Positions 367 through 46,249 of a DNA stretch of 64,000 nucleotides are shown piece by piece. This DNA is from Sipunculus nudus (lineage: Eukaryota > Annelida > Sipuncula > Golfingiida > Sipunculidae). The stretch is taken from contig CM049306.1 of the NCBI GenBank assembly GCA_026874595.1, forward strand, positions 80,812,142-80,876,141. Direction: 5' to 3'. The first letter of the stretch is position 1. Each line of letters begins with the position of its first letter. Under the pieces are notes generated by a model that was not told the origin of the DNA, did not search any database, and was given only the letters and a program-made list of their open reading frames with translations. The translations under genes were made by a program, and so were the position numbers.

Positions 367-729
367 ATTTTGGTGCGGGAGGTCATTATGGAGCTTCATT
401 TTCCTGTGAACTCTGCATTATGAGCATGAAGGCAGTGGTAAGTGGTTGGAAAGACTATTAGTAGCTGCGTCTAATGTTTATACTATGTAACAATATCGAA
501 AATATCCCTAGAATCATAGTTTGTAATTTATGTAATAGTGCTTATACTTGTCGTCGATATATATTAAAGATTTTACGTCATTTAGTAAATATTTGAAAAA
601 TGTATCATTTACTAGGACACGTGTCACAAAACCGAACAAAATAATATCAATTTACTGTACTTGTGAATCTACCTTTAAATGACTCCTTTGGTGGTCTTAT
701 TTTTTATCGTAATAACGGAAGTTTATTTG

Positions 730-791
<62 letters not shown>

Positions 792-1710: not shown

Positions 1711-1787
<77 letters not shown>

Positions 1788-4524
1788 TATCAACTTATAT
1801 AAAACCTTCCAGAAATGTGTGAACTGCGAAGACGGAGAAGTTCCTTTCATAGACCAGGAGCCTGACAACACAGAGTTTGTTAAATGTTACAACTGCAGTG
1901 GTAACAACCAGTGGCAGGATGTTCGTCGAAAGCGTGATCTTAGGTCTTACATCGACAGTCACCGAAATCTGAGGACGCGAGCAGCAGGGAGACCGCAGTG
2001 CATCGTGAAACAGGTGGAAGGTCGGGACTACACTGACCCCGCGTTCAACTTGGAATTTGGCGTTGAGGATGACCGAAGTGACGTACAGTTAGATTACTCT
2101 GTGGGCACAGTACCCTCAGCAGATGACGTGGTCAGTAAGGCGGATCTTGGTGGCGTCTCCACTGTTGTTAGGAAGGTATGACAACTTGCATGGTCCACAG
2201 AAGTGTATTTTATCCAAAGGTCAAAGGTCAACTGAAAGAACTAATGAAGTTCTACTGGCTGTGGAATCAGTTCAAACTATGTTTCTTCATTCGTTAAATC
2301 AGAGGAGTTTGGAAATCTTAAATTGAGCGTAAACACCACGATCGATTCTATGCCAGAAGAACTTTATAATATTTGATATCAATCGCTAACAAACACTTAA
2401 AATCAGTTTCATTTTAGTCACACGATGCAATATGGAGACCGTTTTGTTTACACGCTCAATAATGCCCGACATACACTGTTGGCATAATGTTTTTGGTAAA
2501 CTTTTTTTATAGGTAATGGTTTCCGGTCGTCCACTATATTTTACTGTCTGTGCCAAAAACTCTGGTGGGCTGAGATCGTGCACATACTGTAACCTCCCGA
2601 CCTATGACCTTACTATCCCAGGAGGGCGAGTGACCCCTGACTTCACTACAACCAGTCACCCAGAAATCTTGAAAGGCTCTGCCCTCGTCATAGAAGACTC
2701 GCTTTTGACCTCAAAACAGGTATAAACTAGATTAATGATATTACATTTCCCAGGATATTTAGCATATAAAATGACAATATTTTCATAAAAAAAAATCAAC
2801 ATAGACTAAACCAACATGTACAGGTATAAAGATAGCAACCGTAATATAAATTTATTTGATCCGATGGTTTCGCGTTCCTTTATTTCCTCTATTTACTACA
2901 TTTGCAGCTTGTATCTAAATAATAATGCATTTTATTTTATTAACAGATGGCAGTAGGGTACGGGCGCGGCATTTGGGGAGATCAGATTGTACACTGGACC
3001 AAGCTCGCGATTGTACAGGACAACACCAATGTCGACATTGGTCATGATCCGCTGGGACTAAAATTGTTGAAAAAGTTCTCTGGTATGTTTTTTCCGTGTC
3101 ATTTTATATATTTTGTGTGTGTGTCCTCTATATTCCTCTGAAAATACATATGTGTATATGTGTGCAGCTTTGTTTTGAATTCAGTAGTAAATTTGTGTAT
3201 GTTCTTAAATAAAATATCACAAAGTTTGAGAGTGAAGTTCAGTAAAGTATATATGCATTTTAGGCATTATTATGGAACTATTTACTTTTTCTCTAATGTA
3301 CTGTCTATTAGTGATATGAAATAACATAAGTTTGTTACATTACAATGTAACTTATCTTATTACCAAAGCTCCAAGGCATGGTCGACTACAATCGAAGCCA
3401 GTCAGCACGGCTAATTTCCAGGTACCAGAGGCCTGTGCCAGAGTTTGTGTCGCTTTGCCCACCACAAAGTGCCTTGGGTTTAACTACGACTTCGGTCCGA
3501 GTGGTCATTGTGAAATACTGGAAGAAGTTGAAGGACATGGCGTTGAGCGACATACGGTAATAACATTTGCAAAATTTTGTCAACAGGGAACAATTCATTG
3601 TTAACTTGTTTGATATTTTTTTATAATTATGTTAACCCTTTTTGAAGAATGTGACTTATATCCATGACCTCGAGCTACGTGTGTTTTGGCATCACGCTAT
3701 AGGTCACGACGACGAAGGCGTGGTCAGTCAAGCGGGTTATCACTGGTTATTCCACTTTCTACCCTGCGGCTATAGATCTATTCACCGTAGATAGATTTGC
3801 ACTGTCGGAAGGTTCAAGGAGTATATTCGTGTCGCATTCCATTTCCCTTGTAAAATTATATTTTGATTCCTCAGAGCGTGATTCAAAAGCGTCAATGAGC
3901 AACACGTGTTTTGCACAAACTTAAGCGTTGATGTCCGATATCGGAAGTCAAAATGCTTGTTATAATTAATGTTGAGACGTTGAGCGCGAATAATTCAATA
4001 TATGAACAGGTAATCGGTTATAATCTGACCATTAATCTTAACAGTAATGTCTGTTTTGCTCTCATGGAAATGCAGCTTAAAATAAAAAAGAATTTATCCC
4101 TACCTCTCTACTTATATTGCAAAGCATCAATATGAGTAATAAATAAAAACCATTTGAGGTTTGTCTTATTTGATCCTTAACCTTATTTACTTTTATATGG
4201 GTACGTTACAGGTGGGAAGTTACCACTATTATGAGCGCATCGGAATAGGCCACAAAACAAGCTTTGAGTTCACAGATCTAAATCTGTTGCACAACAATAT
4301 GTACTACTACAACTTCTATCTGCAGAACACTTTACGTGAGTATCTGAGTTGTCATTAAGAACTTGTACAAAATGAATCAAATTATTTAGGATAAGAAGAG
4401 TCCTAATTGGTATTTAAATTACCAATTAAATAATAAAAATGAGTTTCGAGAGAGCGCTTTGAGTGCGCTATGAGTGTTATGAAATATTCTAGGTTAATTT
4501 TAATTTATATATATATAATATTTA

Positions 4525-4582
<58 letters not shown>

Positions 4583-7500
4583 TTCCTATGGTGTATTGAA
4601 CTAATTTGCAAATAAATACCAGCTCTAAGGTGAAAGCAGAGCAGTGTGTATATAACTTTAAGGGACTCAAATCAATTTTTCAATCAGCATTGTACTGACT
4701 AATTAGTTTCTGACCTCTATTTGTTTCTAATGTCGTCAGGTTACAAAAACGTTTTATCGTCAATGGGTGTCTTGACTGACTTCACCTCACCGGAACCAGG
4801 ACACATAGAAAACGCTGTGAGGTATACACAGACTCACGAACCTTGTGAATCATTTGTACCCGACCGGTATAAAATGCGCTGTATCCAGGTTACACCTTTG
4901 AATAACTACAGGTAAGAATATACGAGTTATTTCAATTAATATAGTATTTTTTTAGAAGGGTTTATTATAATAGTGATCCATAAGATAATGGACCCATACG
5001 ATCAATAGGCATGTCTAGATGCTTTCAACTGCAGTTAGCTTTTCGTCAGAATATTTTAAACAGTAAAACGCATTTTATCATGACATTGTAAAACAGAAGT
5101 AAAATAAGTTACTCTTCGGGAACAGTGCAAAGATCAGACAATTTTTCCTCTATTCAGGCTCAAATGATAGTCAATTTCATTATCTCAAAACCTTATGATA
5201 AACCTCTTTATTTATGTATTTTCCAGTTGCTGTGTTCTTTCAAATTTGTACACAATGTTATCCTTAAAAAATTATTTCCTCACTGAACAACATTGAATCA
5301 ATCGATTTTATGTCAGGGTCGATTTGAGAATCAGCTAACTAAATCAGCATTCTGATCAGACTGTTGTTCACAATCCGACTCTATATAGTAAGATGGGGAT
5401 CTTTGAAAAAAAGTATTCATTAAAAAGTGAATAATAAACACTATTCTCTAGTAAAGAGAGAATAATAATATAAGTTTTATCACTTTTTCAAGGTACATAG
5501 TCGATGGCCCTGGGTCGCGCACGATATTTAATGGCCATATCCCGCTTGTCGACGAAAGGTACACCCGCAGCGGGAAAATGATGGCAGGTCAGTGAATGTT
5601 TTGCTTATGTTGATATCACAATCATATATCAAGTAATGTTTTGTTTCCACTGTGAATAGAATTCATCTGCAGTATTAAGGTATTTGAATGAATAACATAG
5701 ATTGTGGAGATTGGCGGTATTATTAGATTTGAAGCGATTACAATATTATTGAAATAGGTTACCGGGAATTATTCTTATCATTTAATATCTTAGTTTTAGG
5801 TCTAAGAGACTCTGAGAGAGACAAATATAATAAATATATTCTCTTTAGTTACCACTTCTCCAGTAAGCACTGAGGTACTAAGATCATAATTGTGCTCATC
5901 TGGCCTAAGCACGGAAGGTACTCGGATGTGGTAAATCCGTGGATTTTAGTATGGCAACACAAATACACTCCTAATGTCGGATATTCTTTTTTCCATTTCT
6001 GTTTTTTGCTTCCCAGATCACAGGATGATCATGTTTTAGTAAATGAAATAAGTATCCTAGACTTTTCTGCATCGTTGATATTTTCGAACAGAAAAGGTTC
6101 ACTTATGAAAAATGATAATCAATCTTTTGGGACTTACAGCCAACTGGGATGGTATCCATGACAATGAGACAGGAATCTTGATGTATACCTGGGGTATAGG
6201 GAGCCAGCCTTGTCAGACAGACGTCCACCCTCACAGGGACCCCCACGACCACCTCTCGGACGCTTCTGAATGGACTCATACTGGCATCGCTTACCCTCTG
6301 AACCTGAAAGGTAGTCCTAGCATTCCTGTTCTACTTCTACAGAATTTCCAGAAACAATGTTTGTTTGAAAGTTAGATTATGCTGTACTTTCTGTAAGCGC
6401 TGATTGAAAATGAGATTTTGTTTAAAATTATGAAGACTAGGATTGAAATATATTATTGGAATAAGGATATATTTGTGGCGTTGTAAAAACGGGGTTCTCC
6501 CAACGTGTGACATCATAGGCAAACCTTGAAAATGGCATCCTAACAAGCACTACCTCGGCTAGTTTAAAGAACATTCCTGAAATGACTACATCTTTAACTA
6601 CAACAACAGAAAATTCATATTAAAAAAAACACTACATAGAGCCTAAATGACTCTCTCTAGGGGGATTTCTCAACATGGTACGTAAGTTGTAATTTGGAAA
6701 TAAAAAAATCGCGCCTCTTATGATGTGAAATATGTCCGGTGAACTGACGGTTCTTTGTTGTTATCGCAGATGGCAATTACCACATGACAGTACAGGCTAT
6801 TAACAAAGTAGAATACGGCGGACCACTGGCACTGGCCGTATGTCACAGCACACCTTATACCGTGGACACTACCCCTCCAGTCTTTTATGGCATCACTGAC
6901 TTGGCCTATGATGAAGACCTTCATATCATAACCTTCAAGTACAATGCAACGTGAGTACCTTTGGCAATGCAAAGTAGGAGCAGCTGTTTTTCGTCTGTTT
7001 TACCAATTTGCAATTTCTTCTATCTCCATTTGATGACTATAAAAGAGTTGATGTCAACAAAGATTACCCCGGAACATTAATCCTGGATCACCAGCCAAGG
7101 GCGCGTAGTACATGCGCATGCCTGTGTGATTAAATTTAATGTCCTCTCAAATTCATTTAAGAAATGCTACATTTGGTGTACATACAAACTGATGCGCAAA
7201 CGTTTGATCTGGTGATTCTATATCCACAGCTTCATCTGGAACAGCTGCAGACCTTCAGAACATTATGTGATGCCAATAGAGAGACAGGCAATTGTTAAAA
7301 TTGCTTCCATATATTTTTTATTATTTTTCACATGTTATTTATTGTTTATTCTACAGGGACCCTCTCTCGGGTATCAAGAGGACGGAGTTTGGACTTGGAC
7401 GCAGTAAGAGGGACACCTACTTATTGGCCTGGAGCGACGCCACCCAGGGGTCACCTATGTCTTATACATACCAGATCCCAGACGGCGTGCCCGCTTGGGT

Positions 7501-10500
7501 TAAACTTCGAATGACAAACCATGGTTAGATATTTTATAAGAACTATCTCAGTGATTTTAGATGTCCTCTTTTATACGAAATCCAGATGTTTCCACAACAA
7601 CTATGTATTTATAATTGGAAGCTTTAAACCCGGCGTAATCTGAAGAGTTTGTCGGGAAATGTTCACGATTAAAACTAATTCTTTGTAGGATTCGTAGAGT
7701 CAGTAATATTTGTATGAGAGATGTATGACTTTTAATTGCAATCACCGGTAATCTATGATAAATATGAAATTCACGTTTACAATGGCCTTGCAAGTGTTGA
7801 TTTAACAATCGATTACCTCATGGATTTTTATTTTATGAGAACAACTTAATATTTGATTTTGTATTCTTCAAAATGCCACAGCAACTATCGCCAATATAAA
7901 CACGAGTAAATCCACTCATATTTTTAATTTACTAACAGTCGTGATCAAAACGGATCATAACGGATAACATTCATGTGTATTTGACAGTTGAGCTGCGGAC
8001 GGTCGGCCACGCTGATCGTGCTTTGCTTGTCGACACCTCTCCCCCTTTCGCTGGTTCTGTTTATGACGGCGAAGATATTCACCATGGAGACCTCGAGTTT
8101 CAGAAAACAGATACAAAAATATGTGGCAGCTGGAAAGACTTCTATGATCCAGAGAGTGGCATCTGTAAGGAAAAATAATTATAATTATAAAAACGTACAT
8201 CACAAGTATGTAACGTAATTATATTCGCGCAACCATGTATTGTTATTTTCTTTCTTGTGTCTCGATTTGTATTTTTTCTTTGTACAAAGAAGTACACAAA
8301 GTTGCAATTGTGTTAGTTAAAACTTGTGGAAATGTTGGCCGTGAAACACGATGTTGTTAAGTTATAACAGCTGAAGTACTGTCTGTCAGAGTAATCAGAT
8401 TTCAGTTTTATATTCCTTAGCCAAGAAAATCTGGATTGTCGTTTTCAGTTAAGGTTTGACTGTATGTAGGGGCAGTTAAAAAACATAGCAGAATTTAATA
8501 GAGGTCGCTGAGTAAGAACCTGCCACATGACTTGAGTAATGGAAATAAATGTTACTTTGTTATGTTTTAGTGAAATATCGCGTTGGAGTGGGGAGCAGAC
8601 CGTACGTAGATGACACTGTGGAATTCGAGTTTGTTGGTCATTCCGTCTTACACAAGTGTTGGATGGCCAGCTTGTCACATAAGCAGACTTACTACGTAAC
8701 GGTGACAGCCTACAACAACGGCCACGATGAACTAAACGTCACCGCTACGTCTAATGGAGGTAAATGAGACTTTAAAGCCGTCATCATAATTCATTAGTTT
8801 TCATTTGTAATTTGTTCATTATTAGATAGAACACTGTACAAAAAAATGTTTCAACACATACTGAAGTTTTAGAGTAAACCTATATGCGAATTATAGAACG
8901 CTCCTCTTGCATCCATTCCTCCACATTATTCTGTATGATGTAAAAAATCAAATAAAATGGAATAAAATCATTTTTACCAGCTTTCTATCAGGTGTCCTTT
9001 CTTTTTTTAATTTTGTGAATATTTATTGGAAAGATAAAAGATAATTAATTTGTAATATCCCGAGAAACAGATAATGAACAACCACCAACATTCTCAATTT
9101 ATTTTTGGAAGATGGGGAAACTTACTGTTTAAAATGAAATATTGTACCTTTTACAGTTCTCATTGACACAACACCACCTGTAGGCGGGAATGTTACGGAT
9201 AGTGCAAACGGTGGCGCTGACATTGAGTACTCGTCAGAAACAGCCGTGGCGTCTTCTTCCTGGGACTCGTTTAACGACCCAGAATCCGGCGTAAAGGACT
9301 ACATGCTACGATTCTTAAGAACACATAAAGGTATTTTAATCTCACATGAAGTTCATCCCTTAAATGTATGTTACCACCAACGCTTTATTTGTATACCAGT
9401 TCATGAGTCCACATGCTATATTTTCAAAGACTAAACAGTCTACATAACGAATGTACATATGATTTTCCATAAATACTTATTTCGATGTGATTTAGAATGT
9501 CTCAATGTCCCAGACACCTGTCTAAAAATAAAACTATATGCTGAGAACAAGTTTCATGGGCGTCTTCATGAAGTAAAAAAAAAAACATGTTTGTCCCCAT
9601 GGCTAATTATAATCAGAGTTGTGAAAAACACTGTAAATGTATATTTTCCAGGTGCGAGCTCCACTGAGGCATCTGTGCACCAAGAGACCCTTGAGAATGA
9701 CGTCACGACCTTGACAGCCCACCACCTCCACCTTCACCATGGAGACAGGGTGCGATCATCCGTTGAGGCTACAAACAACGCTGGTGGTTCAGCTGTCCTG
9801 TACTCAAATGGTTTTACCGTGGACCTTACCGAGCCTGTAATGCATGAACTATCTGATGGACCAATACCAGGCACAGATGCAAAATACACTGTATGTAGAT
9901 TCGTTTATCGTCCTAAACAACCGCCCCTTTTTAACATCATCCCATACTTTATATGTGAAACACACTTCTACAAACGTCATGTGCGTCCAGTGTTAATTGT
10001 CTCAAGTTATCACGGTCACACCAAATCCACTTTTATCTACAGCCGTTTTCACATTGCCCCCATGTGGAAGACTGTTACCCAAATACCGAGTTTAACATAC
10101 TCTTCATACTGTGTTAGAAAAGAAGCGTATTCGGTTGCATATTCGATAATGTATTATATCTCTTTATGCGATTTGTTTGCAGTTTTAAGCGCACGTTCGT
10201 AAATATTCTTCCCATCGTGTATGCACTGCGGAAACGGTATTCAACAGCATACGCTATGCCCATATGTAAAAGTGCGTTGATGCGAATAACGTGTTAGTGA
10301 AACTACTCACCTATCGAAACTGCTCTCCTAACCTATGGGAATTAGAACGCGAATGAATACGGGTAGAGGTTGAACAGAACTGTATCATGTTTTGTGACCC
10401 AAGCATATGTTAAAAGGTTTTAAGACTTTTTGCTCTTCGTGACTTTGTTATTAGATAAAAATGCATCATATTTATCAATTTATCACTGGGGACATAAGAT

Positions 10501-16500: not shown

Positions 16501-16512
16501 GAACCCATGGCT

Positions 16513-16572
<60 letters not shown>

Positions 16573-26046: not shown

Positions 26047-26092
<46 letters not shown>

Positions 26093-28421: not shown

Positions 28422-28469
<48 letters not shown>

Positions 28470-30661
28470 AATTATAAATATTTACTTATTTTTAAAAACA
28501 GGAAAAAAGTACATGCATTTAGATAATGAAGTATTCTTAAAACAGGAAAAAATATAGTAATATTTCAAAGTAGGTGGCAGCACTGAAAGGGGCAGCGATT
28601 AGTACCATATAGTGGGTACCTCTATGAAGTTTGCAGTTTGGCCCAGTCCCATTAGTGCTCACACTATAGAGGTTTATCTGTATCTAATTCCTTTTTAAAC
28701 GAGTGCTTAATACAATTTCAGGAGTGACAGTGATGCTGACAGAACCAGATGAGAGCGACACTCAAACCTCAGTCGCTGATTCAGACCCGATCGACCCATC
28801 TGCTGGAAGCAAAAACGCCGTGAAGACGAAAAAACAGAACGAACTAAATGTCACTTGGGACGAACCCAAATCAGAAGCGGTGGATACCGTGTGTAAGTCG
28901 ATATGAAAATATAGTAAAGAGGTATTATATGACATCGCTGCCCTGCAAGTGTTAATAAATATGAAAATATATTAATTTAAATATGTATTATAAATATATA
29001 TTTTAGTGATCGGTACTTGGCTTTCTTACCAATCATACAAGCAGACAAAAAACTTTTTTTTGTTTAAATTTGTTACATATTTAAGTCTCATGAAACCTAA
29101 AGGATATATAGTAAGAATGCATAATATCGTCAAATTTATATTGAAAACTATTAACGATTCTGCCTTCTTAGTCTGTCAGATATAAACATTTCTTCCAAAT
29201 CGTGTTTCATTTGATATTCTTTTCCAAATCACAACATGCAATGTTTACAGGTTCCTCCCTTTCAGAATATTTTCCCTCACTTCTTTTATATTGTGCGAAT
29301 ATTGGAATTTTTATTTTAACAGATATCAGCATGAGCTCGGCTTCCGATGGCAAAGGAGACATATTTCCACAGCGAAGGGTGGGGTACAACAACTCTGGAT
29401 TCGTCGACGTGAACAGTAACGGACTGTCAGTATCAGGAGAAGAGGCAAAGGTCTCTGACGTCCGCGATAAAACACTTCGAAGCCGAAGATCTGTAGAATA
29501 CGAACTTGTGCGAACGAAAAGAGACGCGGACCCTCAGTTTTACATGGAACCGGGAAGGTGGGCACAGACGTAATTTTGCAATAAAAGTATATATTTTACT
29601 GAACACGCAAAGAAAAGCAGAGAAGGTTACATTTATTATGTATCGATGAAACCTTTTTAAAGATATTATGTATATATAACTCTAGGCTGGCTGTTCATAT
29701 TAAATGAATGACCATCATGAACATTATTGAAGTTTCCGCAGATTGTGCGACCAGTAAATGTAATTTTATGTATAACCCCCCCCCCCCCCCCCCCCGTAAG
29801 ACAGGGACGAGAAGTTTGTTTCTTTATAAATATTTGGGTAACCACTTTTTGTTGGTAGACCTACTTAGATCCTCAAAGTGCAACACTATCAATTTGAAAA
29901 AAAAGTTTCTTTTTCTTTTCTCCTCCTTCTGCCAACTTCTGTTTTCGCCATATCTCCTTTATGGTTTATTTTTAAAAGATGACATTTGGGTACATTTTTG
30001 TACCTGATGGTTTTCCAGTGATTACAAACATCTATATATTATTATTATTACACTCATATTTATTTATATTTTCAGGACCATTTACACTGCCGTTAAGGTG
30101 TGCACCAAGGCACACAAATGTGGGTTCATGAACAACAAAGAAATTGTCATCATAAGTAAGTGGTATCTTAAAACTGCTCATTTCCATTATCATTTGAACG
30201 TAGTTACCTTAGGGTAAAAGCTAATACGGATGCATATACTAACACTTTTCTACCACCTTTGGCCAATACTTTTTATCATCTGGTAGACAGAAGATGTAGT
30301 GATATCCGAGACCCAGATATATAAGCAGCGGAAAAGACCTTAAACTGAGCCCAGTTTATGCTTTTTCGGACATTCTTGTAAGAAAAAAAGTTTCTTGTAA
30401 GAAAAAAACTTTCATTTGTATTATCTGTAATGATCTTTGAAGAAATTCACATGTATCTGGTAACGTTTTACTCTACCATTGAACATGATCATATTATGTT
30501 TTTTCAGGAGACAAGGACAAGATGGGGACAGCTCATGCAGGACAAACCTTGACTATCGAGTTGCCTTTGGACGGACCGAATAAAAGAGTTGTCAGGTTCT
30601 CCTTACAGGGTAAGTAAATTCTCTTTCTTTTGTCTGTTAGATTTACATAAGTATGTGTTAG

Positions 30662-30694
<33 letters not shown>

Positions 30695-32998
30695 ACCAAA
30701 CCTAATAACAACAGATCACGTAATCGTGATCAGCCCAAATTTTGTGACAGAGATAACAAAAATCAGATTCTGTAATACCAGGCAGCGTAAAATGTCTAGG
30801 GGAATGAATAAAGAAGTCAGTGTTTTTTGTTAACAAATAATTATAATTTATTCTTAGAACAATCCTTACATTACAATACACTAAATCAATACAATTACAC
30901 AGCAAAACAATAAAAATGTACAGTACAAGAGTGTCCGGATCCTAGGCCTTGATTTCGGGATACCACCACTGTTACCGCTCCACAAGAGTCCTTTAACACC
31001 AATAATCCACGTAAATAGTAGTAATCTAAAGGCAAACTGGAGACAGTCCGTATTAAATCTGTATAAAATCCGTTAAATATCTAGACCACTGCAATTGACG
31101 GTAAGATCCCAAAATTGACGAGAAAGTAACACTCTAAGTGCTCGCTGGTATTTTCCTTTCTGCCAGTTCTAAACACAGCTCCTAATTTATAGCTTCTTAC
31201 CCAAAAATTCTAGAAATGGAAATTTCCCAAAGAACAATACACACGCACATGAACAGACCCAAAACATCTAGAACAAAAGAACGCCGTTTCTATACGCTTC
31301 AGACCCCACACGCGAGCCAGCACCCAACAAGCGAGGTTCCCATAGCAACGAACTATGCCTGCACTACATGAATCAGAATGTCAACATACACATGTAACAC
31401 TCCTGCGTACTACAAAATAGACACATGCAACAATATATATATGTCAAAACCTGTCTGTGTAATAAGACTACCCGTCTATATAGACAACCTGTGAGTTTAC
31501 CAAAATCAGTCACAATCTTTATAACTGAAGTAATAATTATAATTTATTCTTAGAACAATCCTTACATTACAATACACTAAATCAATACAATTACACAGCA
31601 AAACAATAAAAATGTACAGTACAAGAGTGTCCGGATCCTAGGCCTTGATTTCGGGATACCACCACTGTTACCGCTCCACAAGAGTCCTTTAACACCAATA
31701 ATCCACGTAAATAGTAGTAATCCAAAGGCAAACTGGAGACAGTCCGTATTAAATCTGTATAAAATCCGTTAAATATCTAGACCACTGCAATTGACGGTAA
31801 GATCCCAAAATTGACGAGAAAGTAACACTCTAAGTGCTCGCTGGTATTTTCCTTTCTGCCAGTTCTAAACACAGCTCCTAATTTATAGCTTCTCACCCGA
31901 AAATTCTAGAAATGGAAATTTCCCAAAGAACAATACACACGCACATGAACAGACCCAAAACATCTAGAACAAAAGAACGCCGTTTCTATACGCTTCAGAC
32001 CCCACACGCGAGCCAGCACCCAACAAGCGAGGTTCCCATAGCAACGAACTATGCCTGCACTACATGAATCAGAATGTCAACATACACATGTAACACTCCT
32101 GCGCACTACAAAATAGACACATGCAACAATATATATATGTCAAAACCTGTCTGTGTAATAAGACTACCCGTCTATATAGACAACCTGTGAGTTTACCAAA
32201 ATCAGTCACAATCTTTATAACTGAAGTAATAATTATAATTTATTCTTAGAACAATCCTTACATTACAATACACTAAATCAATACAATTACACAGCAAAAC
32301 AATAAAAATGTACAGTACAAGAGTGTCCGGATCCTAGGCCTTGATTTCGGGATACCACCACTGTTACCGCTCCACAAGAGTCCTTTAACACCAATAATCC
32401 ACGTAAATAGTAGTAATCCAAAGGCAAACTGGAGATAGTCCGTATTAAATCTGTATAAAATCCGTTAAATATCTAGACCACTGCAATTGACGGTAAGATC
32501 CCAAAATTGACGAGAAAGTAACACTCTAAGTGCTCGCTGGTATTTTCCTTTCTGCCAGTTCTAAACACAGCTCCTAATTTATAGCTTCTCACCCGAAAAT
32601 TCTAGAAATGGAAATTTCCCAAAGAACAATACACACGCACATGAACAGACCCGAAACATCTAGAACAAAAGAACGCCGTTTCTATACGCTTCAGACCCCA
32701 CACGCGAGCCAGCACCCAACAAGCGAGGTTCCCATAGCAACGAACTATGCCTGCACTACATGAATCAGAATGTCAACATACACATGTAACACTCCTGCGC
32801 ACTACAAAATAGACACATGCAACAATATATATATATGTCAAAACCTGTCTGTGTAATAAGACTACCCATCTATATAGACAACCTGTGAGTTTACCAAAAT
32901 CAGTCACAATCTTTATAACTGACCAATCTAAAAAGACCACCTTTGCATTAAGATCATTTTGGTCAGTCTCCCAGGGGGTCTTAATTTTACAGGTTTGA

Positions 32999-33055
<57 letters not shown>

Positions 33056-36000
33056 AATACCTGGTGATAGCTCAAGAGAAGAATACCTCAGTGGTGTTCG
33101 GAGAGTTGACGACTACGGATCTCCAACAGAAGTATACCTCCCAGGCCTCCAACACATTCAAGTCTTTCATCAGTGACCCTTCTTCAACAGATGATCAAAC
33201 AGACAGGGGTCTCCATGGCAGGTAACTAGAACAAGCCCTTCTTTCCGCATAATCAAATAAGTGATTAAATGAAACATTGGAGGAAGGGAACATTTTGAGA
33301 TACTGGACAGGTTATTAGAGCCCAGCCGGATTAGCGTTACTCGTCCACATTTTCGTTTCCGGATGATAACTCAAATTTGGATTGGTTGATTGTTTTCAAA
33401 CTGTCACCTGGTCACAGGACCCACTTCTTTACAAATATTGTGGATACATTTTGAGCCAAACGTTTCATCCAAAACCTTCCAAACTTTCATCGTCCACTTA
33501 TGGCTAACCTGCAAAGAGGGAAAGAAAACTTTCCTCTTTTTTTTGGTTCAAAGGTAAAGGTCACTGGTTCCACTACTTATATGGCTCACTTTTCAATAGG
33601 GAGAAGAAGTTTTAATTTTAGGGTCAATGGGTAGTCAAGGACATATGACCCACTAATTTAAAAACATTGTAGATGCATTTAAAGCTAAACGTTTAATCCC
33701 AAACTTTCCATCTTCCAAATATGGCTCATCTGATGAAGGGTAAGTCTTTTGATTTTGGGTTCACAAGGTCAAAGATCAAGATCACACGGACCTCTTCTTT
33801 AAATAAGATTGTGGTTGGCACTTTAAGCCAGACCTTTCATCTTTTACATATGGCCTGAGTGCCAATAGGGTCATTCCATGCCAACTCAACCAGGGCTCCC
33901 CGCATCACCATCTCAGATTTCTTTCATTTTTTTTATTTTAATACTGTGATATGTATGATGAACTTCTGTAATGTCTGTTTTGTAATTTTGTGAAAACTCT
34001 AATGTTTTTGGTCCCTAAAGGGAAGAGGGTTATAACGGCCGAGCGTCATATGTTTTTTTCCCCTGATTTGAGGAGCTCATAACTTCATTAATAATGATGC
34101 TAGAACTCTGTATTTTGACAGAAACACAGTCTAGTAGTTGTAGATTAGATATAATAAGTTAAAAATCCTGGCAGAAATGGAGGATTAAGATTTAATGACC
34201 CTGTTAAAACGCAAAAAAAATCAAAACGCAACATGTTTTCTAATATTCAAAGGCCTGTACAGCCAAATGTTTTCATGGTATGATCTTCAAACTTGCTCAA
34301 TGCAGTATATGGGATATATACATATTAAAAGTGAAATGAATTGACAGATTCACTGAATACTTCTTTCACAGGAAAGGCCAAGATGTCAAAGAAAATTTTA
34401 ATGGACCAATGTTTGGAGCCATGAAATCAAATGTGGGACACCTTGTACAGACTTGAAAATTTAATGTCTTTTAGAACTTCCCCTAAACTGCAAGTGTACA
34501 AAATTTCAGCAATGCAAAATGTGTCTTTTAAGAGTTATCATTTTTTGAAAAAGTACTGTTTTTCACTGTCACGGATGGACAAATAATAACTTCTTGGCAG
34601 TTATTCAAGGTGTTCACACATTCCAGTATTTCTCTTTTGTACTTGTGAACACAGTAAAAACATGTATCAAAGTAGATATGAATCCAATTCAGTCAGTCAT
34701 TAAATCCAAACAAATATCAGGGTACAAAAAATATAAATTTTTGCAAGGACGTTTCGAGGACAATCTAGTTTCTCTCTCATTTTATCAAGTACCTTGGGAA
34801 GTGAATGCTCATTTATAATTCCAGAATGATAATCCAATTCCAGTTCTGCTGGCTGAATGTTACAATTGACAAGACAGCTGTGCAGCTGAGCTGCCATATA
34901 TACCACACAGTTATTTGCATGCAATAAGCAACAGACTTTAAGCTTTAACAATCTGAGACAGGCATCTAACCAGATTCTGCCTTGTTGAGTATGGTCAGTT
35001 ATGGGATAAGCTTTATAATGTACTGTGTACAGTCTAAACACTTGCTTATTAATGATAACTCTTAAAAGACACATTTTGCATTGCTGAAATTTTGTACACT
35101 TGCAGATTAGGGGAAGTTCTAAAATACACAAAATTTTCAAGTCTGTACAAGGTGTCCCACATTGGACTTCATGGCTCCAAACATTGGTCCGTTGAAATTT
35201 TCTTCATAATCTTTGCTTTTCCTGTGAAAGAAGTGTTCAGTGAATCTTTCAATTCATTTCACTTTTATCATGTATATATCCCATATACTGTATTGAGCAA
35301 GTTTGAAGATCATACCATAAAAAACATTTGGCTGTACAGGCCTTTAAATATTAGAAAACATGTTGCGTTTTGATTTTTTTTTTTTTTGCATTTTAACAGG
35401 GCCATTTAATCTGAATCCTGCCAGGTTTTAACTTATTATATCTAATCTACAACTACTAGACTGTGTTTCTGTCAAATTACAGGGTTCTAGCATCATTATT
35501 AATGAAGTTATTAGCTCCTCAAAGCAGGAGAAAATAACATATGATGCCCGGCCGTTATAACCCTCTTCCCTTTTAGGGACCAAAAACATGAGAGTTTTCA
35601 CAAAATTACAAAACAAACATTACAGAGGTTCATCATACATATCACAGTATAAAAATAAAAAAAATGAAGGAAATCTGAGATGGTGATGCGGGGGACCCTC
35701 AAGAAATTGGTTGATTTGGCATGGAATTACCACATAACGAAGCCGAAGAACCCTAAACATTACAAAATCACAAGGACAAGGTCACAAGAACATACTAATG
35801 GTTTACATGCTGACTAGGCTTACCGTTTAATACATCCGTGTTAATTATGCCCCTTTTGCTAGGGATGCTCTGCTTTTCAGTGCCTTAATATTCATACATT
35901 TCTGTCAGTGATTCAAATGTTAAAATCTATTACTTAAATATTTTCAACAGTCAGTTTCGTGTGCCTCTTGTAACCAGATACTTTTTTTTAGTTTTCAAAG

Positions 36001-39000
36001 CATCACTTTGCCCGCGCTCGAAAGCTATTGGTCTTTTGCGGGACCCTTCTTGACCTGTCAGTGTTTTTGCTATTTAAAAACAGTGCTTACAGTTGTGCGT
36101 GTTTTTTCCCAACTGTTATCCAGACAAAGAAATATTTTTGATGTGTAATATTGCTTATAAAATCAATGGAAGATAAACATATTTCTTTTTTTTTGTTGGT
36201 GTGTCGTCAGTATATCTTCAATACAGATGAAAGAAACCTGCAAGAGGCAGTAATCTGAGAGTGCGTGTGTTATTTACAAATCTAATAATTCTTAAAATCG
36301 TTCCTGCCTTTATATGAAGGTAGCTGCTGATCGGATGTTTCATAAAATGCTTACATTCTAAGTAAGATTTTCAACTTTACAGGATTTTCACCTTTGAGGA
36401 CGTGAATATATTCATAACCACGCTACCCTACCAGAGCCTGACCGGGCCTTTAACTGTCATGTACCCGTACAACGCAGGTGTTTACCATGAAAAACGTTTG
36501 AAAGAAATGGAGCCGAGACTACTGGTCTGGGACACAGGTGAGCACATGTAATGCTTCTGGCACTGTCATTGAAATTACTTATAGCTTACTTTATATTTAT
36601 ATCATGTCAAATATTAGAGTTTGTATCAGTTTTATGGCACTTGATCTACTTCTCATACACCACAGAACATACGAGATGGGTGGACGCCGGAAGTACATGC
36701 CCTCCCAGTCAGAGGAGACAAGAATACGATGCATCCACTCAGATGGGCACGGTCAATGTAAGTCACGTTATACCGTTTTTTATGGTTGCTTGTCATTGCT
36801 TCAACCTTTGGTCAAGATTCTTCCGATTAGATTCACGGCTATAGTGCTCAGTATGTACTGCTGCTTGTATAAAAAGATAATATCAGAATCAATGAATGTG
36901 ATTTTAAATAAAGCACGTGCACGTATTTGATGTTTTAAGTAATTTAAACTTCGTGTACACAGTAACAAACAAATATAATATGAAAGAATCATTTATACAA
37001 TAAGTCCATTTATATTTCCCGTTTGTACATTTTATAAAGGTATGTGGAAGGAAGGCCTATGAAGCCCCAACCCGAACAAAAAGGGGGACGACGGGACAGA
37101 CATTATCAGGGCCTCAACAGCTGTCATTAGCCGGGGTAAACACGAGTTTCACAAACACTCCACCAAGGTTGGCGCCGGGACCAACAAAGTTCAACATGTT
37201 TGAGGACACAGGACTCTTTGTGATAAAGTTCACAGCCGAGGACGATGAAAATGATGACGTGTTCTTCACCCTCGTCTCACAGCGACCTTTAACTGTGGGA
37301 GGTAATGTATCTGTAAGTGCAGACGGCAGACTAACGTACAGGCCTTGTGTTCACTGCTACGGTGTCGAAAATATATTCATAAGACTCGTGGAAAAACGGA
37401 CTGATGGGGAGACGGCCCTCAGCACTGTTGTTCAAATAGATATTGAGGTATATCCGGTCAACGATGTTCCTACCATATTCATCTTCTCAGACAAAGGTCG
37501 TGTCAACATTAGTGAAAACATTGTAGAAGTAGCCATTGAGCAGAACGGTATAGCTGACGAGACGTCTGAAGGTCTGACATTTGTTGTGGGTGCGACTGAT
37601 GTTGATGGAAATGACAGAGTGGCACTGGCTCTGGAGTCTCAAGCTAACGAAACCCTGTACATGTCCAGCGAATCCTACCTGCTGGCGTACAATCGGAGCC
37701 ACTGCTTGAAGTCTCCAACCGAGGCAATGAGGAAATACATCACGGAGACCATGGTTGATCTAACGCCAGCATTTCCGGTGCCCTGTGATTTGCTGGACGA
37801 AGTAACGTCAACGCAGTTAAGCTTGTCAACCCGAGTAATTAAATACACACCAGAGCCAGGTTACAGTGGATTAGATGAAATTAAGGTAAGTCTCAAGTTA
37901 CTAATACTCTCGTTTACGATATACTATCTGCTCTGAATGAAAAATAAAGAAATGTATAGTTTTGTAATCACGGAACAAGACCTCAGGTCTTCTCGAAAAC
38001 CGTTTATATTCAAAAATATATATACAGGAAATATCACGGTTAAGGATGTACTTATGATCGATAAGCGTTTTTGCAAGTCACTATATTTAAGGAATGTAAC
38101 TCCGTCCTTATCATATGATAATATTTTATATAATTTTGTATGATGAAATTGACCTTGTTTGAATATTTTTTTTATGTAATTTTCCAGCTTATAGCTGAGG
38201 ACAATAACGGTGGCCGTTCTGAGGTTACTGCCATTAAGGTGTACGTCCTTGCTGGAAAATGTCTAAATAACGGGACCTGTCGGGGACCAACCAGCGACCC
38301 GGACTGCTCAGGCACTGACAGGATTAACGGTAAGCTTGACTCCAACAGATACGCCAACCCTCGGTGGCATTTCAAATTATTATGTATACAGAGAAAGAAA
38401 TTCATCAACCCCAACCGGCGGGGTGTACTATATCTTCAGTTGTTCAGAAATGGAAACAATATTTTAAATATTGAAATAGTAAGTGTCACTCGAAGCTTGA
38501 AACCATCACTAAGCTGCTCTGTCATAAAGAGTTACATTAATCAAACTAATTCGAATTGCTCAAAATAACATATGACTCCTGTCTTTGTTCAAAGTCCATA
38601 ACATATACGCCGGTGTGTCTGGATTTCGAGGCCGTTATAGAATATCTTTATCCGATACATTAGCTAAACTATAATATGCACTACCATTCAATTTACAGGC
38701 TTTTCGGGGTACCAGTGTATGTGTGCCGCAGGATTTACGGGGACGTACTGCCAGGTTGACTTCGACGAGTGTTCATCCTCACCCTGCCCTGACAACTACA
38801 CCTGTATCGACCAGGTGGGCTCCTACATCTGTCACTGTGAGCTGGGCTGGCCCTGCAGCTACAAACCTCCAGTATCATCCCAGAAACTGTGGGAGATAAT
38901 CGGTGTGGCAGTGCCGTCCGGCGTCATACTCATCGGTCTCATAGTCGTTATATTCATCAGATATCGCCGCCCTGCCAAGTCTGCTTCGTAAGTCCAGAAC

Positions 39001-40651
39001 AATGTCCCAGAAAAAAAATAAATTGACGTTTACAGAAGTCTTGACCTCATACTGGTAGCTACGCACCATATTAAATAAAAATGATATTCAAAAATTAATC
39101 CCCACGTCCTTTCCAGTCTAAAATATATTTAAAATAAACAGAATTCAAAACAAACGCCAGCATCTAGATCAAGAACTTATTTTAGAATTTCTTGGAAACC
39201 TATTCTCCTCTCGTATGCATGTTGGTCATACTCACAAGACAGCTCGAGTGTATCAGTTTCTGTTCCCTACATGCCAGTGGAGTTTATAAAAAGGCGAATT
39301 CTTTGAAATTCTGTAATTTACATTAATTTTTTTCCAGTCATTTGAATCATGACTAACATTGTATGTTTAAGGATTATTATTATATTGTGCACGATGATTA
39401 ATTATACCTATGATCCTTCTATATCAAGCGTAAAATTACACATTTGACACACCGCTTAGTCTTGTTCATGAGAAAATATTGTTTCAGGTAAACTGCCCTT
39501 TTTCATACCAGACATATATTTATGATCATGTGTTGTTAAAATATCATATTGATCAATATTTTTTTTCTGTTCATTTTTATGTTACCTTACTTGGGACCTT
39601 ATATTTAAAAACAGGCTTCCAGTTATATCTAGTACACTGGAATAGGGTTGTACAGGCTGACACTGTTCACTGAAACAATACAAAATCTTTAACATGCATT
39701 TTCCAGGTCTTCCGAAAAACCTCTGAGGACCGACTCTTACTCCAGCGCGGACACGGACACGGACACGTTCAGTCGAGGGCCAGCTTTGTTCCGCAATGAC
39801 TGGATGGGACATGATGTTCAGTTCCAAAACCCGCTATATAATGGAGGGCCTGTCTACCACTTCCCAAGACATTGGTTCAGGGACAGCAAAATGCCACCAG
39901 CTGAAAACATACGGGTGAGCATAATTCTATTCTATTCAACGATTTTTAGGCATCTTAGGAATAAGATTATTACACCAAACGAACAAAAGATTATGACTTC
40001 AATGTATTACCCTACCATGTGTCTATCAGAATGTTTTAAGGTAAACAAATAAACATCTTACATGAATGAAATATAGATGTGTGAGAACCTTTTACCAACT
40101 AGTTCTTTCCAAGAACTTTGAGAGATATTTAAGGATCTTTACATATGGTTTGTGTGGTCTGCTGCCCTAGACCTAAATAGCATGGGGGGCCTCAACCATG
40201 TACATAAAATAAATTGTCTTACGTGTATTTCATTTGTCAAATGAAATCAAGAATACGCTAATGGAAGTGCCGTACGTACTTTCCTTGATTTACATAACTG
40301 AATAATTACATCTATTTAATAATGGCCGCCCTAAGGGCTGAAGTTGCATCACAAGAACACATGGCGGCCTGATTTATCTATCCATGTTATCAAAATTAAA
40401 AAAGAATGTATGTATGCAGATACACAAGTGCCGTATATATGGAGGGTTTATAAACAGTACTTATTTTTACCTAGGAGAAAGGCGACGTACCGCAACCAGA
40501 CTATGACATCAGAACCAAGCTTCCCCGGATAGAACTGAAAACGTCCTCATCTGGTTCCGGTCAGTCTCCGAAGAAACGACAGCAGAGTCACAATGGGAAC
40601 AAGAAATCCAAAGGCCTCCCAAGAACACCATGGGGCGAAATGCCATTTTAA
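367..40651 (+). CDS. Giant modular type I transmembrane protein, 58 exons seen, 5' end outside window
   Basis: Fifty-eight exons were placed by hand from GT-AG (one GC-AG) sites. Their lengths sum to 10,745 nt; after the first 2 nt, which finish a codon from an upstream exon, this leaves exactly 3,581 codons including the TAA at 40649-40651, and every intron phase matches across its junction. Exon coordinates are in the block entries below. Domain order: beta-rich module, Cys-rich linker, Apple/PAN-like domain, about 17 fibronectin-III-like modules with one LamG-like domain inside the array, furin-type sites, two cadherin-like repeats, two EGF domains, one transmembrane helix (about residue 3425-3443 of the visible frame), and a cytoplasmic tail of about 135 residues with NPLY. 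The protein is therefore expected at the cell surface with a huge ectodomain. An adhesion or scavenger receptor role is inference; I do not recognise a named family. No start codon or promoter is in the window. Confidence 0.93.
733..785. repeat. (TA)n microsatellite
   Basis: About 26 uninterrupted TA units in intron 1-2 of the giant gene. Confidence 0.95.
1713..1790. repeat. (CT)n(TA)n compound microsatellite
   Basis: About 17 CT units run directly into about 17 TA units, in the short intron just before exon 4. It is open in all frames and falsely joins exons 3 and 4 into one long open frame. Confidence 0.95.
1813..2719 (+). CDS. Giant gene exons 4-5: Cys-rich linker with furin-type site, first FN3-like module
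   Basis: Exons 1813-2175 and 2513-2719, both phase 0 at both ends. Exon 4 opens with two CxxC pairs (KCVNC and KCYNC, 18-19 residues apart), followed by a basic RRKR site at about residue 189-192 of the visible frame. Then comes the first FN3-like half-module, with the 'DYSVGTVPSADDV' strand. Exon 5 supplies the matching 'LYFTVCAKNSGG' strand and a 'GGRVTPDF' linker. The CxxC pairs probably form disulfides because this is an extracellular region; zinc binding cannot be excluded. Confidence 0.85.
2947..5587 (+). CDS. Giant gene exons 6-10: Apple/PAN-like domain and flanks
   Basis: Exons 2947-3082, 3369-3556, 4212-4335, 4740-4911 and 5493-5587. Exon 7 has the Apple/PAN pattern: an N-terminal 'FQVPEACARVC' helix, then 'KCLGFNYDF' and 'GHCEIL', that is C-x3-C-x9-C-x-G-F-x-Y with a fourth Cys before a hydrophobic strand. 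Apple/PAN domains bind protein or carbohydrate ligands in plasma kallikrein, plasminogen and many invertebrate receptors. Exons 6 and 8-10 encode about 175 residues of aromatic-rich sequence (VGYGRGIWGDQ; NNMYYYNFYLQN) that I cannot classify. The short exons keep frame through alternating phases. Confidence 0.78.
4529..4580. repeat. (TA)n microsatellite
   Basis: About 26 TA units in the intron before exon 9. Confidence 0.95.
6140..9890 (+). CDS. Giant gene exons 11-17: FN3-like modules
   Basis: Exons 6140-6310, 6770-6950, 7357-7523, 7988-8164, 8571-8759, 9157-9330 and 9652-9890, about 430 residues from residue 580. Four to five divergent FN3-like modules can be followed by a repeating signature: a 'W..F.DPESG' loop (FYDPESGI, FNDPESGV), a 'Y.VTV.A.N' strand (YYVTVTAYNN), and a '(D/N)G..VDTTPP' linker (YTVDTTPP, LVDTSPP, LIDTTPP). 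Modules are mostly split by phase-1 introns in the middle of the domain. Exon 13 contains RSKR, a possible furin site, but inside a folded module. Confidence 0.88.
10581..14395 (+). CDS. Giant gene exons 18-23: FN3-like modules
   Basis: Exons 10581-10702, 10833-11001, 11750-11909, 12421-12586, 13049-13287 and 14099-14395, about 385 residues from residue 1013. Modules carry YTDPESGVDQY, LDPESGINMY, 'YLVAIGTTPG', 'YLWAIGTAPLMDDV', TDGVTLDNTPPQ and SDGVTVDTTPPQ. Exon 20 starts at 11750 after CGTTTAG; its ATG is an internal Met, not a start. The 'AIGT.P' strand right after the DPESG loop is the most constant part of the array and can be used to find homologues. Confidence 0.9.
12815..13018 (+). 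mobile_element. SINE-like unit in intron 21-22
   Basis: A degenerate tRNA-like head with a B-box-like word (GGTTAAATTCCCAG) is followed by a pyrimidine-rich core (GTGGTTTTCTCCGGGTCCTC, then TGGTATCCTCCAC) and an A/T-rich tail with AATAAATAAAG. This order is usual for tRNA-derived SINEs of marine invertebrates. The ends were not determined exactly and no target duplication was seen. Confidence 0.5.
15437..18256 (+). CDS. Giant gene exons 24-30: FN3-like modules
   Basis: Exons 15437-15555, 15846-15939, 16257-16409, 16815-16939, 17283-17367, 17649-17742 and 17993-18256, about 310 residues from residue 1397. Signatures: FSDLESGIDHFKVGFGSFPG, KKYFVTVIAVNRVGQQ, VVDDTPPE, FEDSESGVTRY and VTVKAYNGAGLYS. 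Exon 24 is ended at 15555 (GGT|GTAAGT), because using the GT two bases earlier breaks the frame. One module has an inserted Cys loop (VCGNGK ... VCPEMDAICQ), probably one or two extra disulfides. Confidence 0.88.
16516..16581. repeat. (TA)n microsatellite
   Basis: About 30 TA units with one interruption, in the intron before exon 27. Confidence 0.95.
18523..22111 (+). CDS. Giant gene exons 31-36: FN3-like modules
   Basis: Exons 18523-18659, 19156-19425, 19919-20216, 20974-21103, 21467-21721 and 21908-22111, about 430 residues from residue 1708. Modules are more diverged here: the DPESG loop is replaced by SGDPCP in exon 31 and GKESEE in exon 32, but returns as FSDPESDVTQYEVAI in exon 36. The 'YFTLVRATNQLG', 'YYITVRAHS' and 'YLAAVIAVDQTG' strands and the FTVDTTPPVEG linker keep the register. 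No intron-exon conflict was seen. Confidence 0.87.
22320..23330 (+). CDS. Giant gene exons 37-39, with a GC-AG intron
   Basis: Exons 22320-22494, 22640-22788 and 23211-23330. Exon 37 (YYVFLRTTNGAGLS strand, then 'VIDGD' linker) ends in CAAAG|GCAAGT, a GC donor with an otherwise ideal donor consensus. The next exon (acceptor at 22639) needs one incoming base, which this donor supplies (G|GA, glycine). The only nearby GT (GAG|GTC at about 22486) gives phase 0 and runs into a stop within exon 38. Exons 38-39 continue a module with a Cys (NNACPHVTYSLDI) and a basic, strand-like end (AHLAKGGKYK). Confidence 0.85.
23665..24665 (+). CDS. Giant gene exons 40-42: LamG-like jelly-roll domain
   Basis: Exons 23665-23893, 24102-24253 and 24487-24665, about 186 residues from residue 2288. 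After a short FN3-like strand (FSLKAASGELRAV), the sequence follows a concanavalin/LamG-like order: 'GMQIRP' strand, 'SALLVWVKARNQTW', 'SVELTFDPSDDWHDYKITV', 'GTLAVYVDGK', then 'FQVQLWND'. The WH-Y-I-V strand followed by 'YVDGK' is typical of LamG and pentraxin-like jelly rolls, which bind glycans or proteins, often with calcium. This is a motif-level call; the fold was not computed. A bacterial-type sugar-binding jelly roll is the main alternative. Confidence 0.7.
25006..26916 (+). CDS. Giant gene exons 43-46: last FN3-like modules and Cys-rich insert
   Basis: Exons 25006-25135, 25663-25840, 26220-26395 and 26727-26916, about 225 residues from residue 2474. Contains 'YAAVGSAPLMDDVAPY', a compact Cys insert with six Cys in 17 residues (CLPCVNQCLQCDPNC), then 'SSDGVYIDVTPPE', 'WEATDPQSEIVEYRWAIGT' and 'YYATLKVKNQAGL'. 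For exon 45 I chose the acceptor at 26218-26219, which joins 'FLSVKAVSG' directly to 'SGREVVASSDGV' as in the other modules. An upstream AG at about 26156 is also in frame and would add about 21 residues. Confidence 0.83.
25200..25410 (-). repeat. Dispersed repeat copy (family with GATTCCGTTC...TGATTGC core)
   Basis: Read on the minus strand this matches the copies at 27.32-27.48, 54.42-54.49 and 55.32-55.52 kb. Shared words are AACGGAT/ATCCGTTC, CAACATAACTCGCACAATCG (here on +), GGAATCGATTA and GGATTCAGGAACG. It lies in the intron between exons 43 and 44. Confidence 0.6.
26050..26090. repeat. (TA)n microsatellite
   Basis: About 20 TA units in the intron before exon 45. Confidence 0.95.
27320..27480 (+). 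repeat. Dispersed repeat copy (GATTCCGTTC...TGATTGC family)
   Basis: Contains TTCCTGAATCTGGAT, AGATTCCGTTCATGATTGC and a CA-rich stretch, in the same order as the copy at 55.32-55.52 kb. It lies immediately left of the TA-flanked element that starts at 27494. Confidence 0.55.
27494..28680. mobile_element. Non-autonomous Tc1/pogo-like DNA transposon, 1.19 kb, TA target duplication
   Basis: The left end GAGTCGAACCTCTCTTGG and the reverse complement of the right end (CAGATAAACCTCTATAGTG) form imperfect terminal inverted repeats. They are followed on both sides by related subterminal words (AGTGAGCACTTTCGG / GTGAGCACTAATGGG, then GCAGTCCCAT / ACTGGGCC). TA flanks both ends (27492-27493 and 28681-28682). 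No transposase frame is present; a (TA)n tract sits at about 28430-28466. The CCTCTNTNGTG end type and TA duplication fit the IS630/Tc1/pogo group. It sits in the 1.8-kb intron between exons 46 and 47. Confidence 0.65.
28722..30609 (+). CDS. Giant gene exons 47-50: linker with furin-type sites
   Basis: Exons 28722-28892, 29323-29557, 30076-30155 and 30508-30609, about 196 residues from residue 2699. Exon 47 is hydrophilic, rich in Asp/Ser/Lys. Exon 48 has two furin-type sites close together, RSRR (about residue 2808-2811) and RTKR (2819-2822), each followed by a flexible acidic stretch. Exons 49-50 have a small Cys pair (KVCTKAHKC) and two strand-like runs (TIYTAVKV, LTIELPL). Cleavage would separate the FN3-like array from the membrane-proximal part; whether the halves stay together cannot be told from sequence. 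Confidence 0.85.
29776..29795. repeat. Poly(C) run
   Basis: Twenty uninterrupted C in the intron between exons 48 and 49; the length is likely unstable or assembly-sensitive. Confidence 0.9.
30836..32922. repeat. Tandem array, three copies of a 696-bp unit
   Basis: Copies start at 30836, 31532 and 32228, each with AATAATTATAATTTATTC, so the period is exactly 696 bp twice. By eye the copies differ at only a handful of positions (for example CTTACCCAAA versus CTCACCCGAA, and one TA unit), which points to recent duplication or gene conversion. Each unit ends with a segment starting GTCAAAACCTGTCTGTG that is also the left end of the MITE-like element at 32.84-33.0 kb. It is inside the intron between exons 50 and 51 and has no convincing open frame. 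Confidence 0.95.
32836..32999. mobile_element. MITE-like element at the end of the 696-bp array
   Basis: Left end GTCAAAACCTGTCTGTGTAA faces the reverse complement of the right end, AGTCAAACCTGTAAAATTAA, as terminal inverted repeats. Internal 'GACCACC ... GGGGGTCTTA' words mirror each other. The left half is repeated in every unit of the array, so the array probably grew from an element of this kind. A related sequence lies at about 30-145. Confidence 0.5.
33001..33047. repeat. (TA)n microsatellite
   Basis: About 23 TA units, ending 24 bp before exon 51. Confidence 0.95.
33071..36757 (+). CDS. Giant gene exons 51-53: membrane-proximal beta-rich segment
   Basis: Exons 33071-33221, 36383-36537 and 36666-36757, about 133 residues from residue 2895, around a 3.2-kb intron that carries a large inverted repeat. 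Readable runs are 'TSVVFGELTTTDLQ', 'RIFTFEDVNIFITTLPYQS', 'LTVMYPYNAGVY', 'MEPRLLVWDTGEHTRWVDAG' and a Cys (STCPPS). I do not recognise a domain. The phases (1 into exon 51, then 2, 1, 0) match on both sides, so these exons belong to the same transcript despite the long intron. Confidence 0.83.
33417..33865. repeat. Degenerate tandem repeat, about three units
   Basis: Three diverged units share the order '(ACCCACTT)CTTTA.A.A.(A)TTGT.GATGCAT', 'AGC(C/T)AAACGTTT(C)ATC', 'TATGGCT(C/A)A(C/T)' and 'GGTTCA.AGGTCAAAG'. Starts are at about 33417, 33638 and 33787. The AAAGGTCA-type words are common in molluscan repeats. In the intron between exons 51 and 52. Confidence 0.5.
33872..35729. mobile_element. 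Long inverted-repeat (foldback) element
   Basis: The left arm 33872-34541 and right arm 35052-35729 are reverse complements along about 670 bp, with roughly one difference in ten by eye. Outer ends: CATTCCATGCCAACTCAACC against the complement of GGTTGATTTGGCATGGAATT. Inner ends: AAGAGTTATCAT against ATGATAACTCTT. The spacer is about 510 bp. Its minus strand is open for 146 codons (34700-35140) together with part of the right arm, with no recognised motif. No target-site duplication was seen. It lies inside the 3.2-kb intron between exons 51 and 52. A long-TIR DNA transposon is most likely; an inverted duplication is the alternative. Confidence 0.85.
37040..38329 (+). CDS. Giant gene exons 54-55: two cadherin-like repeats, start of first EGF
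   Basis: Exons 37040-37885 (846 nt, the largest) and 38188-38329. Exon 54 starts with a further RTKR furin-type site (about residue 3040). Two cadherin-like (VCBS/Ig-like tandem type) repeats follow: repeat 1 begins 'FNMFEDTGLFVIKFTAEDDE' and ends at 'VYPVNDVPTI'; repeat 2 has 'VGATDVDGNDRVAL', 'IKYTPEPGYSGLDEIKL' and 'AEDNNGG'. Acidic DxD- and 'VND.P'-type motifs suggest calcium at the linkers, as in the family. Exon 55 ends in the first half of an EGF domain (GKCLNNGTC). Confidence 0.88.
38699..40651 (+). CDS. Giant gene exons 56-58: EGF domains, transmembrane helix, NPLY tail
   Basis: Exons 38699-38987, 39707-39914 and 40475-40651. Exon 56 completes EGF 1 ('CMCAAGFTGTYC') and encodes a calcium-binding-type EGF 2 (DFDECSSSPCP ... 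GSYICHCELGWPC), then a helix 'IGVAVPSGVILIGLIVVIFI' and a basic stop-transfer RYRR. The tail has an acidic-threonine DTDTDT repeat, Ser/Thr-rich stretches, 'FQNPLYNGG' with an NPxY-type sorting and PTB-binding motif, and a very basic KKR/NKKSK segment before TPWGEMPF. The frame ends at TAA 40649-40651. Confidence 0.92.

Positions 40652-46242: not shown

Positions 46243-46249
<7 letters not shown>

Follow-up and report, generated by a model that had tools for sequence, protein, structure and literature searches.

A 58-exon chain in the window

The window analysed here is a 64,000-nucleotide stretch of the Sipunculus nudus genome (C1:80812142-80876141; the genome searched comprises 1.43 billion bases in 153 contigs). 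It contains the last two thirds of one very large gene, present as a plus-strand chain of 58 exons that encodes 3,553 residues, in which all phases close and the single stop lies at 40651. The features of this chain are as follows (copies at other loci are named by their contigs):

367-437, 910-1067 and 1338-1563, plus strand: exons 1-3, beta-rich module of unknown fold (gene finder and a hand-placed exon)
1813..2719, plus strand: exons 4-5, linker with Cys followed by the first FN3-like module (matched in the C11, C6, C13 and C3 copies)
3369..4335, plus strand: exons 7-8 (hand-placed), PAN/Apple-like domain and the following part (PAN_1 below cut-off)
2056..28753, plus strand: exons 4-47, 19 FN3-like matches (Pfam fn3 and an iterated self-HMM)
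23665..24665, plus strand: exons 40-42, LamG/concanavalin-like stretch, a putative fold (no Pfam match)
29323..29557, plus strand: exon 48, furin-type motifs RSRR and RTKR (sequence motifs)
30076..36757, plus strand: exons 49-53, unnamed domain with introns 30610-33070 and 33222-36382 (exon chain)
37040..38329, plus strand: exons 54-55, furin-type RTKR, cadherin-like (Big_9) repeats and start of the EGF-like region (Pfam Big_9)
38732..38987, plus strand: exon 56, EGF_CA-like domain and predicted transmembrane helix (Pfam, PDB sequence search, hydropathy)
39707..39914, plus strand: exon 57, putative cytoplasmic tail with NPLY (the copy at C1:80.69 Mb has NPLY, that on C2 NPVF)
40475..40651, plus strand: exon 58, end of the tail and stop codon (both arms of the C2 copy match it)

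We rebuilt the exon list from the sequence, knowing the coordinates but not the exon list of a preliminary description of this DNA, by using a self-trained Viterbi gene finder in which genes were allowed to end and restart anywhere. Strict exon penalties gave 32 exons in the first run and loosened penalties 57 in the second, 55 of which make up a single open plus-strand chain that spans 910-40559; the remaining two (48170-48208, 39 nt, and 52820-52831, 12 nt) were discarded as spurious. The finder alone recovered 55 of the 58 exons of the final chain. Exons 367-437, 3369-3556 and 4212-4335 were added by hand from reading frames, and the last exon was extended by hand past 40559 to the stop. 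Paralogues later provided matches to the hand-placed exons, two for exon 1 (the C11 and C6 copies), four for exon 7 and one for exon 8.

When internal exons were left out of training one at a time and chosen again without the phase of their neighbours, 52 of 56 were picked exactly, 54 of 56 were in the same frame, and phases agreed in 49 of 55 neighbouring independent choices (binomial p ~1e-17), a test that is favourable because its search windows were taken from the model. The same model scored 51 on the reverse strand versus 1,095 on the plus strand. The 58 exons in one frame of the preliminary description are thereby borne out, with one stop and 3,553 instead of about 3,580 residues, and the chain is part of a real gene.

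The full gene and its paralogues

Exon 1 of the window starts at an acceptor in phase 1, that is, mid-codon, and the 5′ end is therefore open in the window, where the gene is incomplete. In the 40 kb of genomic DNA before the window the gene runs on for 27 kb to an ATG at -27018, at which our own hydropathy scan detects a signal peptide. This upstream DNA adds 32 modelled exons encoding 1,485 residues, so that the preliminary description of the gene as intact, with about 3,580 residues, is not supported. In full, the model spans about 67.7 kb and comprises 90 exons that encode 5,038 residues; exons 33-90 are those of the window (numbered 1-58 here). The predicted protein begins with a signal peptide, Vitellogenin_N, a helical region, M23, the beta-rich module and the Apple-like domain, and continues with FN3-like matches, the LamG-like stretch, furin-type sites, cadherin-like and EGF-like regions, a membrane helix and the NPLY tail. 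The upstream parts as predicted (signal peptide, Vitellogenin_N and M23) change the identity of the protein.

The 5′ end had first been placed at -27306, and was replaced by the ATG with signal peptide at -27018. We discarded an upstream exon at -19522 to -19410, an open stretch that mimicked an exon: the greater part of it is repeat-derived and matches at least 24 other places in the genome. A 71-nt exon at -20261, which has the same length and phase in the C11 copy, takes over from it. The 54-nt upstream exon at -9533 found no match in the C11 copy and may be false.

We searched the genome with six blocks of the gene (Vg_N, M23, beta/Apple, LamG-like, C-terminal and EGF/TM). All six occur in the same order and on a single strand at seven loci:

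The window gene
C11:16.27-16.35 Mb
C13:5.64-5.71 Mb (C13a)
C6:2.75-2.80 Mb (C6a)
C6:7.56-7.61 Mb (C6b)
C13:16.94-16.87 Mb, minus strand
C6:13.50-13.45 Mb, minus strand (C6c)

At C13a, C6b and C6c the EGF/TM query matched EGF only, and C13a has a membrane-like stretch in another alignment. Seven further places carry only some of the blocks (C1:80.69 Mb; C2:92.89-92.90 Mb; C3:80.73-80.76 and 80.92-80.96 Mb; C6:2.26, 2.52 and 13.56 Mb). In the C11 copy, exons 42, 43, 45, 46, 52 and 53 have the lengths and phases of the window, exon 54 differs by 3 nt, and the length differences of exons 44, 47, 48 and 55 are multiples of three; no match to exon 50 was found there, and the gene finder skipped exons 49-51.

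The seven collinear loci settle the question of whether this is one gene. Three long introns (26.9-28.7, 30.6-33.1 and 33.2-36.4 kb) would suit a misreading of two or more neighbouring genes as one, but with all six blocks collinear at seven loci, and with the counterparts of these introns measuring about 454 nt (C11 copy), about 120 nt (C2 copy) and about 640 nt (C11 copy), respectively, and repeats present in the last two in the window, such a misreading is scarcely credible. The breaks suggested earlier at the first two of them are ordinary introns, and the claim of one receptor-like gene with an unnamed order of modules finds support in the paralogous loci too. Judged from the sequence, the gene and its architecture are very probably as modelled.

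Three near-identical 696-nt direct tandem repeats (30836-32922; 99-100% over the stretches compared) take up most of the intron at 30.6-33.1 kb, and that at 33.2-36.4 kb contains a fold-back element (33892-35699) with inverted arms that are 92-98% complementary. On C2 (92890914-92904310) there is an inverted duplication of the C-terminal part, where both strands carry exons 52-53 and 55-58 and the start of exon 54; it may reflect either a palindromic duplication or an artefact of assembly. Two divergent copies on C3 (80734793-80763908 and 80924704-80957939) lie in opposite orientation; their LamG-like blocks contain open frames 1,204 and 1,183 residues long and are therefore apparently intron-poor. 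Vg_N and M23 were absent from the C3 copies among the matches listed.

Domains of the predicted protein

The Vitellogenin_N profile of Pfam matches the first ~560 residues of the full model with 42.5 bits (E 4.4e-11, cut-off 24, profile positions 27-553 of 590); the score was 31.1 bits before the start, one exon and the exon-junction codons were corrected. By profile score, then, the predicted protein has the Vitellogenin_N (LPD_N) module of the large lipid transfer protein (LLTP) superfamily. The match was absent from the spliced lipid-module pieces of the C11 copy, which are incomplete, and a PDB sequence search with the lipid part did not find an LLTP chain. The passages of PMC10799875 on this point give a signal peptide, LPD_N, DUF1943 and VWD as the make-up by which a vitellogenin is recognized. 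Pfam searches of pieces of the gene gave no match to DUF1943, DUF1081 or VWD, and by the usual criterion, as those passages word it, the protein is therefore not a vitellogenin (PMC10799875). Single-exon Vitellogenin_N matches elsewhere in the genome (seven listed, all above the cut-off) lie on C4 and C2 and none belongs to the family of the window gene, which thus stands beside ordinary lipid transfer genes and distant from them.

Peptidase_M23 scores 32.7 bits in the window gene and 40.6 bits in the C11 copy (Pfam cut-off 28.7). According to the text excerpted from PMC9662197, the metal motifs of M23 are Hx3D and HxH, a further His precedes HxH by about 30 residues, and LECT2, the one mammalian M23 protein described, is without a catalytic His. 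Both Hx3D and HxH are present in the M23 domain of the window gene. Where the M23 exons could be read in the loci retrieved, five of six copies retain Hx3D, the exception being the minus-strand copy on C13 with Gly in place of Asp, and all six retain HxH. The further His, which active enzymes carry, is replaced by Asn in 7 of 7 readable copies, at a position taken from a PDB sequence search in which the alignment to an M23 peptidase chain is weak (E 0.04); the direct sequence match to LECT2 is likewise weak (E 0.3). The M23 domain is probably non-catalytic. In the C6b copy an in-frame stop falls within the match to the third M23 exon (C6:7577589-7577768), and this copy is possibly a pseudogene, or the exon end is placed differently.

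The modules of the stalk and membrane part that had been named beforehand fared unevenly in profile searches. FN3 stands, with Pfam fn3 reaching 48.7 bits in one of four pieces (cut-off 25); two other pieces score 24.2 and 16.1 bits, below the cut-off, and the fourth has no match. An HMM iterated on the protein itself gives 19 FN3-like matches, some partial and interrupted by the Apple-like and LamG-like stretches, with E-values that are inflated because it was iterated on one protein alone. The cadherin-like repeats stand as Big_9 (32.5 bits against a cut-off of 23.6, in two stretches), and a piece of the C11 copy scores 26.5 bits with Big_9 and 25.7 bits with Cadherin_4 (cut-off 25.1). Apple and EGF_CA fall just short: PAN_1 scores 18.0 bits against a cut-off of 21.4, in a stretch that is matched in paralogues, and EGF_CA 26.1 bits against 27, in one stretch, which leaves the first of the two EGF domains claimed weak. 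LamG had no Pfam match at E up to 5 across the pieces of the window gene; the LamG-like block (exons 38-43) is collinear in six paralogous loci. Chains of Notch EGF match the EGF-like region from E 1.8e-14 in a PDB sequence search, and 59 of the best 60 of the 74 chains matched by the C-terminal piece cover that region; the remaining one, a spermidine synthase, was taken as chance.

Other matches were set aside. Ig_J_second, of an Ig-like family, scores 32.2 bits and exceeds its cut-off of 27, but covers an FN3-like stretch. PDB matches to ribosomal S9, a disulfide protein, designed repeats and alphaRep were taken as chance, as were Pfam matches to BpsA_C, Baculo_PEP_C and Gasdermin, all below cut-off. 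LDLR, LNR and ankyrin families were not among the Pfam matches listed, and a viral-contig scan of two pieces, which reaches close relatives only, confirmed none. AlphaFold predictions of single exons gave a pLDDT of 38.2 for exon 4 and 32.6 for exon 54.

All four copies whose alignment extends to the RxKR that precedes the cadherin-like repeats (C1, C2, C11 and C13a) retain it; the C6 alignments begin beyond it and are outside that count. Of the exon-48 motifs, RSRR and RTKR, neither is kept in position in the C11 copy, whose exon 47 has RVRRS instead, and one is kept in the C2 copy. A single membrane helix is predicted in exon 56 (hydropathy 2.83), and its exon is matched in the C2, C11 and C13a copies. 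The tail motif reads NPLY and NPVF in the two partial copies compared (C1:80.69 Mb and C2, respectively).

A candidate lipid receptor

The above anatomy suggests a type I membrane protein with an LLTP front end, a LECT2-like M23 domain, an FN3-rich stalk and an NPLY tail, which would act as a receptor for lipid or lipid patterns; we put the probability of this reading at about 0.55. The mechanism that we propose for it is more tentative, since lipid binding, cleavage, endocytosis and a role in immunity are all read from the order of domains. The lipid module would bind a lipid or a lipid-bearing, perhaps microbial, ligand, and the M23 fold might provide a second binding site, both being held away from the cell by the FN3-rich stalk. 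Furin would cut the chain, resulting in a two-chain receptor or in shedding from one, and the NPLY tail could recruit endocytic adaptors.

The main rival is a secreted or shed lipoprotein-like carrier, in which furin would free the lipid module, together with the stalk, to enter the body fluid, and the membrane part would be no more than a biosynthetic anchor. Known LLTPs are mostly secreted carriers, and both the furin-type motifs between stalk and membrane part and the conservation of RxKR in every copy reached would fit such a product. However, the matches of the helix exon in three copies and the NPLY or NPVF of two copies suggest that the anchor has a role of its own, and we consider a shed carrier unlikely. 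Less probable again is an epithelial protein with a structural task in adhesion or matrix, whose lipid and M23 folds would serve as binding surfaces only. Adhesion proteins often carry FN3, cadherin-like and EGF modules, and the great length of the protein would also suit this role, but LLTP and M23 folds are atypical of adhesion modules and the endocytic-type NPLY tail would be left unexplained. An active surface M23 peptidase that cuts bacterial wall peptides, to which the kept Hx3D and HxH motifs might point, is highly improbable given the Asn at the further His in every readable copy and, in the excerpts of PMC9662197, a mammalian LECT2 that likewise has no catalytic His.

A receptor for lipid or lipid patterns would share parts with several known systems. 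Proteins of the LLTP superfamily carry yolk and blood lipids or aid their assembly. The window gene resembles the known LLTP classes in its N-terminal signal peptide and Vitellogenin_N (LPD_N), and differs from them in its M23, FN3 and EGF domains, membrane anchor and cytoplasmic tail. LRP1 and Notch are furin-processed endocytic or signalling receptors, and the window gene is like them in its EGF modules, furin-type motifs, single helix and NPxY tail; unlike them, it had no LDLR, LNR or ankyrin match among the Pfam matches listed, its stalk is FN3-like, and it carries a lipid module of its own. With LECT2 and other degenerate M23 proteins it has in common the M23 fold, the metal motifs and an incomplete catalytic set, whereas its M23 is one domain within a membrane protein of 5,038 residues. 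The known LLTP classes also differ from it in their make-up, as far as the passages of PMC10799875 describe it, in that the window gene has no match to DUF1943, DUF1081 or VWD. No description of this architecture was found among the top matches listed from the open-access PMC literature.

If the receptor reading is true, a membrane-anchored LLTP with an endocytic-type tail and a disabled M23 domain would link lipid carriage to surface recognition, and would offer a testable entry into the roles of large unnamed multi-domain proteins of invertebrates. One could go further and, with some hesitation, see in this family a separate branch of the LLTP superfamily, expanded in this animal to at least seven large loci. 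The ancient lipid module, which in other proteins belongs to secreted carriers or chaperones, would here serve a membrane receptor as its ligand-binding head, next to a LECT2-like degenerate M23 domain, and the receptors would perhaps sense or scavenge microbial lipids and wall fragments. The M23 fold would matter here too, mammalian LECT2 being similarly degenerate in the text excerpted from PMC9662197.

Two other elements lie in the window. An open frame of 366 residues (44752-45852) gave no Pfam match at E up to 0.01. Its product, we presume, resembles the end of a LINE-type reverse transcriptase protein. A tandem repeat at 46246-46605 consists of about 3.5 copies of a 102-nt unit.
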